A DNA stretch of 56,377 nucleotides, from NCBI GenBank assembly GCA_963170165.1, contig CAUJGQ010000010.1, positions 1 through 56,377 on the forward strand, written 5' to 3'. Under the pieces are notes generated by a model. That model worked only from the letters and a program-made list of their open reading frames with translations, was not told the DNA's origin and did no database searches. Below, piece after piece: positions 7,947 through 11,359 of the stretch. The DNA comes from Chloroflexota bacterium (GTDB lineage Bacteria; Chloroflexota; Dehalococcoidia; CAUJGQ01). How positions within the stretch are numbered: position 1 is the stretch's first letter; each line of letters begins with the position of its first letter. Both the position numbers and the translations under genes were made by a program.

Positions 7947-7976
7947 TTGACAGAGTTAGTGCTGACTCACTATCCT
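7947..7976 (+). promoter_or_regulatory. tetR promoter with overlapping operator
   Basis: TTGACA at 7947-7952 is followed after 17-18 bases by CTATCC/TATCCT at 7970-7976. The 16-bp operator TAGTGCTGACTCACTA (7957-7972) fills the spacer, with 5-bp arms TAGTG and CACTA around 6 bases. The same arms recur at 8713 and 8918. An operator lying between -35 and -10 fits autorepression by the TetR protein encoded 20 bases downstream. Confidence 0.75.
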
Positions 7977-7992
7977 TCTGCCGAAGGGCACG

Positions 7993-8688
7993 ATGATGAC
8001 AGTAGCACGGCAGCGGGCACGCAAACGACCAGCCGAGGTACGGCGGGAGGAGCTGCTTGACGCCGCGGTGCGGGTGTTCGCTCGCACACCCTATCGAGCC
8101 GCCGGCACGGCCGAGATCGCGCGCGAGGCCGGAGTAGCCGAGCCAACGATTTACCGGCACTTCGGCTCCAAGCGCGATCTGTACTTGGCGGCGCTGGAGC
8201 GGTGCGGCGCCAAGGTGCGCGACCAGTTCATCCACATCGCCCAGCGCGAGCCTGACCCGCTGATGGCGCTGCACGAGATGGGTGAGTGGTACGGCGAGAG
8301 TATCTCGCTGGACAACGAGCCGCTGCGCATGCGCCAGCGCGCCATCGCCGAGTCGGAGGATGGCGAGGTGCGCGGGCAACTCCGGCGGGTGTACGAGCAG
8401 ATCATCACCACCATCGCCGAGATCATCAGCCGAGGTCAGGCCGCGGGCTCCTTCAGCCGGGCCGCTCCGGCCGAAGGCATGGCCTGGGCGTTCGTCGCCA
8501 TCGGCCAGGCGATGGATAGCGCCGCGCTGATGGGCTACCCAACCGCCGAGTGCCAATACCGCTTCGCCGAGCTGCAAATCGCCTTCATGCGCTACCTGCT
8601 GGCCGACCCGGATCATCCCGCCCTCCTGCAGATGGTCAGCGCGTTGGGCGAGGCGCGCCGCGCCGCAGCGGCGTCCGCGCCGGATTAG
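7993..8688 (+). CDS. TetR/AcrR family transcriptional repressor
   Basis: A 231-residue regulator. Residues about 15-65 form the TetR helix-turn-helix, with REELLDAAVRVFAR followed by AEIAREAGVAEPTIYRHFGS and KRDLYLAAL. The remaining helical part is the ligand-binding and dimerisation domain. GAAGGG upstream serves either ATG 7993 or ATG 7996. Its promoter carries an operator identical in arms to two sites between it and the MMPL exporter, so it probably represses itself and the exporter and responds to a small hydrophobic ligand. The ligand is not inferable. Confidence 0.93.
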   Translation: MMTVARQRARKRPAEVRREELLDAAVRVFARTPYRAAGTAEIAREAGVAEPTIYRHFGSKRDLYLAALERCGAKVRDQFIHIAQREPDPLMALHEMGEWYGESISLDNEPLRMRQRAIAESEDGEVRGQLRRVYEQIITTIAEIISRGQAAGSFSRAAPAEGMAWAFVAIGQAMDSAALMGYPTAECQYRFAELQIAFMRYLLADPDHPALLQMVSALGEARRAAAASAPD

Positions 8689-8693
8689 CAGCC

Positions 8694-8709
8694 AGACGCC
8701 ATGGCGTCT
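8694..8709. repeat. Perfect 16-bp palindrome
   Basis: AGACGCCATGGCGTCT reads the same on both strands and begins six bases after the tetR stop codon. There is no T-tract, so it is a weak candidate for an intrinsic terminator. It could be a second type of protein-binding site just upstream of the 8713 operator. Confidence 0.6.
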
Positions 8710-8712
8710 AGA

Positions 8713-8728
8713 TAGTGAATGTACACTA
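8713..8728. promoter_or_regulatory. TetR operator, copy 2
   Basis: TAGTGAATGTACACTA matches the arms of the operator in the tetR promoter exactly (TAGTG-N6-CACTA), and the palindrome extends one base further on each side. It lies 25 bases after tetR and about 65 bases before a small candidate gene, in a position to control transcription toward the MMPL exporter. Confidence 0.75.
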
Positions 8729-8793
8729 TGTTTTGCGCGCCGCCGCCGGCCCGCCCTCCCACTTCAATCCGCCTTTCCAAGGAGGCCGCCCCA

Positions 8794-8979
8794 ATGCTCA
8801 ACCCTTCCACACTCGAACTGCTCGCCCGTGCACGCATGGCCGATGACGGCCGGCCGCTCCGCCGTCGCCCTGTTTCCGCCGGGCGCCCCCGGCGGCTTTC
8901 CTCTGCTACGCTGCACCTAGTGAATATTCACAACCTATTCCGCACCTTCCGTCGTGCCGCCCGCGTCCGGCCGGCCTAA
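8794..8979 (+). CDS. Small basic hypothetical protein in the TetR/MMPL intergenic region
   Basis: A 61-residue Arg-rich candidate protein beginning MLNPSTLELLARARMADDG. An AAGGAGG ribosome site lies about 10 bases before ATG 8794, better than that of most genes here. The first twenty residues look like a short amphipathic helix; the rest is basic and low in complexity. The third operator copy (8918-8933) falls inside the 3' end of this reading frame, which weakens it or means the operator controls a second start. No family is recognised. Confidence 0.42.
   Translation: MLNPSTLELLARARMADDGRPLRRRPVSAGRPRRLSSATLHLVNIHNLFRTFRRAARVRPA
8918..8933. promoter_or_regulatory. TetR operator, copy 3
   Basis: TAGTGAATATTCACAA differs from the consensus TAGTG-N6-CACTA at one position. 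Its core GTGAATATTCAC (8920-8931) is a perfect 12-bp palindrome. It lies about 115 bases before the MMPL start codon, the expected place for an operator controlling that gene. Confidence 0.75.
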
Positions 8980-9046: not shown

Positions 9047-11359
9047 ATGTTCCCGGCTCTCGCCCGTTTCACTTACCGCCGCCGCTGGGCTGTGATCGCC
9101 CTCTTCTCTGTCTTGCTGCCGTTCGCGCTTGCCGGCGCCGGGTCGGTGTTCTCCGCCCTCGCTCCCGGCGGCTTCGACGACCCCAGCTCCGAGTCACGTC
9201 GCGCCACCGCGCAGATTGAGCGCGCCATCGGTGGCGGCCGTGCCGACCTGATCGCGCTGTACACCGCACCGGACGGGCAGGCAGCCGGCCCCGCTGCCGC
9301 CGCCGCCATCAGCGCTGCCACGGCACGGGCGGCCGCCCATCCCGCCGTCGAGCGCGCGGTCTCCTATTTCTCCACCGGCGCACCGCAGTTCCTGTCTCGC
9401 GACCGCTCGCGCACCTTTGTGATGTTGACGCTCCGTGGAAATGAGTCAGAGCGTGTTGCCGCGGTGGATGAGATACGGCCGCTGCTGGCGGCGGAAGGGC
9501 TGACATTGCAGGTCGGCGGCATCATGCCGGTGTTCGAGGCCGTCAACACCACCGTCGAGCACGACCTCCAGCGCGCCGAGAGCATCGCCTTTCCGGTCAC
9601 CGCCGTGCTGCTGCTCATCATCTTCGGCACGGCCGTCTCCGCCGCGCTGCCGCTAGTGATCGGCGCACTGGCGATCCTGTGCGCCTTCGCGCTGCTGCGT
9701 ATGCTGGCCCTGATAACCGATGTCAGTGTGTTCGCCATCAACATCGTCACACTCATGGGCCTTGGCCTGGCGATTGACTATGCGCTGTTCATCGTCAACC
9801 GCTACCGCGAGGAGATCCACCACCGCCCGCCGCAGGAGGCGCTTGTCACCACCGTCGCCACCACCGGCCGGGCCGTCGCATTCTCCGGTGTGACCGTCGC
9901 TGCCAGTCTGGCCGGGCTGTTCATCTTCCCGCAGACCTTCCTGCGCTCAATGGCGCTGGGCGGCATCGCCGTAACGTTGGTGGCGGTGGTGCTGGCGGTG
10001 ACGCTGTTGCCGGCGTTGATCGCGGTGCTCGGCCGGCGGCTGGAGGCGCTGCGCGTGCCGTGGCTGGGCGCCGCAGCGGCTGCTACCGGCGAAGGCGGCT
10101 TCTGGCGGCAGGTAGCGATGACCGTGATGCGCCGGCCGCTGCTGATCGGCGCGGCCGTGGTGGCGCTGCTGGTGATGCTGGGCCTACCGTTCCTGCGCTT
10201 CCGGGCCACCGGCGTGGACCACCGTGTGCTGCCGCAGCATATTGAGGCTCGCCAGGTCAGCGACACGCTGGACCGCGAGTTTCAGCCGCACGAAATGATG
10301 CCGCACCAACTGGCGGTGATCTCGGCCGGTGACATCCTCACCGCGGAGCATATCGGCACCCTGTATGACCTGGTGCAGGCGGTGGCCGCCGCACCCGGGA
10401 TCACCCGCGTCGATAGCATCTTCAGCGTCGTGCCGGGTCTGAGCCGGACGGAGTACCAGGCACTATACAGCCGCCCCGCCACCGAGCAACCTCCGGCGCT
10501 CACGGCCGGGCTGGCGCTGTTTGCCCGCGGCAACTCGGCCCGTATCAGCGCCATCAGCGCCCACGAGGCCGACGACCCGGAGGCGCTGGCGCAGGTGCAG
10601 GTGCTACGGGCGCTGCCGGAGCCGCCGGGAATGACGGTGCTCACCGGCGGCCGGCCGGCCGACCTAGTCGATCTCAAGGGTGAGCTGGCTGCCCGGCTAC
10701 CGTTGATGGCCGCCATCATCGGCGGGGTGATGTTCGTGGTGCTGTTCCTGGTGTTTGGCTCAGTGACGCTGCCGCTCAAGGCGATGGCGATGAACTTGCT
10801 GTCGCTGAGCGCATCCTTCGGGGCGCTGGTGTGGGTGTTCCAAGATGGGCGGTTCGAGGGAATGCTCGGCTATACCTCCACCGGCGGCATCGACGCGACC
10901 AACCCGGTGCTGATGTTCGCCATCCTATTCGGGCTGTCCATGGACTACGAGGTGCTGCTGCTCTCGCGGGTGCGCGAGGAGTACGACCGCACGGGAGACA
11001 ACACCCAGGCGGTCGCACGCGGACTGGAGAAGACGGGACGGCTGATCACCAGCGCTGCCCTCCTCTTGATCATCGTCATCGGCTCGTTTGCCACCTCGGA
11101 TATTGTCTTCATCAAACAGATCGGCGCCGGTATGGCGCTGGCGATTGCCCTTGATGCCACGATAGTGCGCGGGTTGCTGGTGCCAGCCGCCATGCGGCTG
11201 ATGGGCCGCTGGAACTGGTGGGCGCCAGCGCCGTTGGTAGCGCTGTGGCGGCGGGCGGGACTGGCCGGTCTGGAGGGTGGTGCACATTCTGTGGCGGGTG
11301 GTGGGTCTGAGCGGGGCAAACGGCCCGCGGCGGCGGGACAGCGCGAAAGCGCACGGTAG
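9047..11359 (+). CDS. MMPL/RND family transporter
   Basis: A 770-residue membrane protein with the duplicated MMPL layout: one N-terminal helix, a large external loop, five helices, a second helix-loop and five more helices. The first repeat has GLGLAIDYALFIVNRYREE and the second has FGLSMDYEVLLLSRVREEY, the acidic motifs of proton-driven MMPL/YdfJ-type exporters. Such proteins export lipids or hydrophobic compounds (family knowledge). ATG 9047 follows AGGAG by 8 bases; the in-frame upstream extension to 8954 lacks this. Two operators shared with the tetR promoter lie upstream, so it is probably the target of that repressor. Confidence 0.93.
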   Translation: MFPALARFTYRRRWAVIALFSVLLPFALAGAGSVFSALAPGGFDDPSSESRRATAQIERAIGGGRADLIALYTAPDGQAAGPAAAAAISAATARAAAHPAVERAVSYFSTGAPQFLSRDRSRTFVMLTLRGNESERVAAVDEIRPLLAAEGLTLQVGGIMPVFEAVNTTVEHDLQRAESIAFPVTAVLLLIIFGTAVSAALPLVIGALAILCAFALLRMLALITDVSVFAINIVTLMGLGLAIDYALFIVNRYREEIHHRPPQEALVTTVATTGRAVAFSGVTVAASLAGLFIFPQTFLRSMALGGIAVTLVAVVLAVTLLPALIAVLGRRLEALRVPWLGAAAAATGEGGFWRQVAMTVMRRPLLIGAAVVALLVMLGLPFLRFRATGVDHRVLPQHIEARQVSDTLDREFQPHEMMPHQLAVISAGDILTAEHIGTLYDLVQAVAAAPGITRVDSIFSVVPGLSRTEYQALYSRPATEQPPALTAGLALFARGNSARISAISAHEADDPEALAQVQVLRALPEPPGMTVLTGGRPADLVDLKGELAARLPLMAAIIGGVMFVVLFLVFGSVTLPLKAMAMNLLSLSASFGALVWVFQDGRFEGMLGYTSTGGIDATNPVLMFAILFGLSMDYEVLLLSRVREEYDRTGDNTQAVARGLEKTGRLITSAALLLIIVIGSFATSDIVFIKQIGAGMALAIALDATIVRGLLVPAAMRLMGRWNWWAPAPLVALWRRAGLAGLEGGAHSVAGGGSERGKRPAAAGQRESAR

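Follow-up and report, generated by a model that had tools for sequence, protein, structure and literature searches.

A TetR-family repressor probably holds down both its own gene and a neighbouring MMPL-type exporter through three copies of one palindromic operator, TAGTG-N6-CACTA, until a ligand releases it. Circuits of this type, in which a self-controlling repressor also governs a neighbour, are ordinary and known. The group of operators and regulators to which this one belongs, and a switch of operator spacing within that group, are apparently new and undescribed. The operator provides a concrete, testable site for a widespread and apparently uncharacterised group of TetR proteins, and, with the protein encoded here, an MMPL exporter from beyond the mycobacteria has a candidate regulator.

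Operators around tetR

The first-pass annotation of the window (the whole 56,377-nucleotide stretch analysed) described three operator copies around tetR, with identical arms in two, a single base difference in the third and a constant gap of six bases. All three copies are present as described. The features of the region are the following.

7947-7976, + strand: tetR promoter, with -35 TTGACA at 7947-7952, an 18-bp spacer and -10 TATCCT at 7971-7976
7957-7972, no strand: operator 1, TAGTGCTGACTCACTA, 0 mismatches to TAGTG-N6-CACTA, within the tetR promoter
7993-8688, + strand: TetR-family regulator of 231 aa, recognition helix GVAEPTIYRHF
8694-8709, no strand: perfect 16-bp palindrome, AGACGCCATGGCGTCT, 3 bases 5' of operator 2, with a single copy in the genome
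8713-8728, no strand: operator 2, TAGTGAATGTACACTA, 0 mismatches, 24 bp past the tetR stop
8794-8979, + strand: putative leader ORF of 61 codons behind AAGGAGG, containing operator 3
8918-8933, no strand: operator 3, TAGTGAATATTCACAA, 1 mismatch, in the last arm, 113 bp 5' of the MMPL start codon
9047-11359, + strand: MMPL/RND-superfamily exporter of 770 aa, ATG start after AGGAG, Pfam MMPL

A fuller form of the operator, TAGTGA-N4-TCACTA, was taken from homologous operators. At least one of its inner TGA and TCA triplets is retained at each of the three copies, and both are retained at operator 3. The separate palindrome AGACGCCATGGCGTCT may be a hairpin of the tetR mRNA or the site of another protein.

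Operator 1, which the first-pass annotation placed within the tetR promoter, fills the space between the -35 and -10 elements of this TTGACA-18-TATCCT promoter, and the TA at its end doubles as the opening TA of the -10. The promoter scores 10/12 against sigma-70, and its geometry is the same in a sister genus (TTGACT-18-TATTAT). Here a dyad operator overlaps the promoter of its own regulator and is conserved with that regulator, the arrangement of a TetR autoregulatory circuit. Self-control of tetR, also part of the initial description, is strongly supported by the position of the operator inside the core promoter and by the same placement in front of about 20 tetR homologues from other genera and families, and autoregulation is very likely. 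A dimeric TetR-family repressor is posited to bind TAGTGA-N4-TCACTA; at operator 1 it would sit between the -35 and -10 of the tetR promoter and block RNA polymerase, leading to negative autoregulation.

Mismatch scans for TAGTG-N6-CACTA across the 4,411,708-bp genome found two exact copies, both flanking tetR, and 17 sites with at most one mismatch, three of which are operators 1-3. With the other 14 sites as Poisson background, 0.0014 sites would be expected in the gaps on either side of tetR against the three seen (P about 5e-10), a post hoc value because the pattern was derived from operators 1-3 themselves; the independent test is the cross-genome scan. With up to two mismatches allowed, the window contains nine matches against 6.95 expected, which is overall not above chance, although the three best matches are clustered. 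Such a background would suit a reading of the three copies as chance palindromes in AT-richer gaps. The count in the two gaps makes this reading close to untenable, and conservation in other genera already refutes it for operator 1.

The prediction that few other sites would be found, at transport or lipid genes, held for their number. Nearly all of the 12 others examined fall inside a coding sequence or at its border, and just one is promoter-like. This one-mismatch site, a poor palindrome (C30:5586; L005 1501-1516), lies in a gap that has a CoA-transferase family III gene on each side; it is 102 bp upstream of one of these genes and is a possible extra member of the regulon. A larger regulon in this genome was considered and rejected, as the other sites are mostly coding and the sole site in a wider gap is a poor palindrome.

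The operator and its regulator across the class

A blind, DNA-only scan for TAGTGA-N4-TCACTA over 294 genomes of the class, with the reversed pattern as control, returned 24 sites in 22 genomes, compared with 10 for the control. At 18 of the 24 sites, the gene that follows closely encodes a homologue of this TetR: 17 of these homologues were identified by phmmer within the locus of the site, and one site lies directly before the TetR gene of genome G084. The pairing is also visible from the side of the protein: of 32 TetR homologues examined, taken from the strongest match downward, 20 have a copy of the operator, exact or with a single mismatch, no more than about 80 bp from their start, and it is absent at the starts of TetR genes of the class that are less similar. 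The genome studied here holds at least 10 TetR genes, any other of which might recognise the operators and leave the adjacent TetR a bystander. That possibility is very remote, as across the class the operator accompanies homologues of this particular TetR, tracks their recognition helix and is missing from the less similar genes.

Homologues bearing the operator share a helix like G-V/I-S/A/T-E-P-A/T-L/I-Y-R-H/Y-F; the exceptions are two f34-family proteins with the helix EPTIYRHF and no operator. The f33 family forms a well-supported nested clade in which letters of the APS, SAS or PPA type replace SEP and TAGTGA-N4-TCACTA is absent. At the same place, six of its eight members have GTGA-N8-TCAC (for instance GTGAATAGCAACTCAC, GTGAAACACTGTTCAC and GTGAATGGAGATTCAC), which is the half-site of GTGA-N4-TCAC set four bases further apart. 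N8-type sites are found upstream of TetR homologues at loci L137, L138, L142, L145, L146 and L149. On the TetR tree, operator presence changes four times, compared with 13.1 times when labels are shuffled. Recognition helix and operator spacing appear to have co-evolved, and a nested change in half-site spacing together with a change in the helix would amount to a natural experiment on how TetR DNA specificity shifts.

The genes that accompany the operator differ among relatives. In the sister-genus genome G001, tetR encodes a protein 54% identical to this TetR and is found without the exporter; its operator is flanked by TTGACT and TATTAT. Another exact copy in G001 (L170 1755-1770), flanked by TTGACA and TATTGT, precedes a FAD_binding_3 oxidoreductase gene, and a one-mismatch copy has a similar promoter setting before a dehydrogenase-like ORF. 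Another example is G084, which encodes the next closest TetR (40%) and has two exact operators (L109 6533-6548 and 10210-10225), one at the start of the TetR gene and one 3.7 kb away before a peptide-type ABC transporter (solute-binding-protein/permease) operon. An RPE65-type carotenoid oxygenase gene adjoins this operon. In other families, the TetR gene adjoins two to four acyl-CoA dehydrogenase genes, with homologues placed ahead of runs of such genes. These contexts imply autoregulation in the group together with control of one or a few operons of lipid-related or transport function, and a target that shifts between lineages. A broader proposal, which we hold only tentatively and at somewhat less than even weight, is that these proteins constitute an undescribed, class-wide set of lipid-sensing TetR repressors with co-evolved helix and operator (N4 with the E-P helix, N8 in the nested clade), re-wired in the present genome so that an MMPL lipid exporter has taken the place of acyl-CoA breakdown as the target.

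Probable control of the MMPL exporter

The exporter belongs to the MMPL family (PF03176, 6e-79, 266 bits), and its closest solved relatives are MmpL3 structures (8.7e-108). It falls far below the threshold for the MmpL3 trehalose monomycolate exporter (NF052608), with a score of 421.9 against a cut-off of 1400. Its control by the TetR is likely, as judged from this one genome. The initial proposal that two sites serve the exporter is favoured by the two further operator copies between tetR and the MMPL gene and by the scarcity of good sites elsewhere; conservation of the pair does not bear it out. This TetR was found paired with an MMPL gene in no other genome examined. Elsewhere in the phylum, MMPL homologues at 41-47% identity have no TAGTG operator, and the case for exporter control rests for this reason on operators 2 and 3. 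At three loci (L150, L152 and L056), MMPL homologues of 44-47% identity follow a same-strand TetR gene that encodes a different TetR, and these too have no TAGTG operator.

Operators 2 and 3 both lie inside the 358-bp gap that runs from the tetR stop to the MMPL start at 9047. No recognisable sigma-70 promoter was found at either: operator 2 is followed by a weak -10-like TATGTT in the same register as at operator 1 and has no -35, and operator 3 has neither element. No good -35 was found for the exporter. When bound, the two operators would hold down transcription into the MMPL gene, either because a non-consensus promoter at operator 2 is covered or because read-through from tetR is blocked.

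A TetR that controls itself only is unlikely, although several observations would fit it. Operators 2 and 3 would then serve tetR, by titration or by stopping antisense or read-through transcription, and the exporter would be independently controlled. The two operators have no recognisable promoter, the sister genome keeps tetR and its operator without the exporter, the MMPL homologues lack the operator, and operators 2 and 3 are 205 bp apart, or about 19.5 helical turns, and therefore out of phase for looping. Against this stand the two extra copies placed before the exporter in a genome otherwise devoid of exact copies beyond operator 1, and the operators that related TetRs elsewhere have at the promoters of other genes.

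The putative leader ORF around operator 3 is probably not a gene. A good Shine-Dalgarno sequence precedes it. Its codon score is negative, it has no Pfam family and no clear homologue, and the matches found in relatives are partial and marginal (E 0.003-0.009), so that it is kept only as a possibility. The predicted structure of the leader RNA between tetR and the MMPL gene is no more stable than that of shuffled sequences (z -0.45), and the terminator-like hairpins in this gap are consensus matches only.

The regulator, its putative ligand and known systems

The regulator carries a TetR_N helix-turn-helix domain (PF00440, 2.1e-18, 66 bits against a cut-off of 24). Its predicted model contains ten helices in an all-helical, two-domain fold, and the top PDB matches of the model are TetR proteins. 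KstR, FasR and FadR, which regulate lipid metabolism, are among the first in the fold ranking, although the ligand domain of the model is of low confidence (pLDDT 51-59 after residue 150). The best NCBIfam match is FasR (NF053731), which at 58.8 is below the equivalog cut-off of 330 and covers mainly the DNA-binding domain. The second is FadR (NF053878), also below its equivalog cut-off (51.4 against 200), over residues 19-157. A MaoC/FAS1-dehydratase-like gene lies directly upstream of tetR. This gene, the FasR, FadR and KstR relatives and the acyl-CoA dehydrogenase neighbours of the homologues together suggest an acyl-CoA-type ligand as the best guess. Such a ligand, most likely acyl-CoA or a related lipid, would free the repressor, and both regulator and exporter would rise.

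FasR of Mycobacterium tuberculosis senses long-chain acyl-CoA, binds inverted repeats and activates fas-acpS (PMC7382501). It is the closest characterised relative by sequence, being also among the best PDB sequence matches of this TetR. An analogous role here, in which the TetR activates the exporter from operators 2 and 3 while repressing itself, would agree with the lack of a good -35 for the exporter. This is improbable, given that operator 1 and the sister-genome sites are inside core promoters, a repressing position. Repression at all three operators is the reading preferred here.

Among characterised circuits, MAB_4384 of Mycobacterium abscessus is a TetR repressor with a palindromic operator that controls itself and MmpS5-MmpL5 (PMC5895659). 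The type of regulator, the palindromic operator and the MmpL-type exporter target are common to both systems. MAB_4384, however, belongs to a divergent pair with one 27-bp operator, whereas tetR and the exporter are co-directional on the + strand, 358 bp apart, with three 16-bp operators and no MmpS gene. With both genes on one strand and separate operators, the locus differs from the classical divergent TetR-efflux pair of the TetR/TetA or MAB_4384 type. The Sulfolobus regulator FadR_Sa recognises a 16-bp dyad motif with few genomic sites, one of them predicted inside an ORF, and is released by acyl-CoA (PMC6449355). It resembles this TetR in the 16-bp dyad, the small number of genomic sites and the site inside an ORF, but is archaeal and controls a 23-gene lipid-degradation cluster. 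The operators of BkaR, MbdR, MftR, Rv0078 and EdcR were compared as possible known matches and have different sequences. No TetR operator matching TAGTGA/TCACTA was found in the literature searched, and a subscription-only paper could still contain one.

In Bacillus, FadR is an acyl-CoA-responsive TetR repressor of acyl-CoA dehydrogenase genes in fatty-acid degradation, and its box is TGAATGA-N4-TCATTCA. The TGA-N4-TCA core is common to this box and the operator described here. The two differ in the outer half-site, which here is TAG/CTA and not TGAA/TTCA, and in the neighbouring gene, here an MMPL exporter. Upstream of a TetR gene at locus L024 is the sequence TGAATGAACAATCATTCA, which we take to resemble the Bacillus FadR box.
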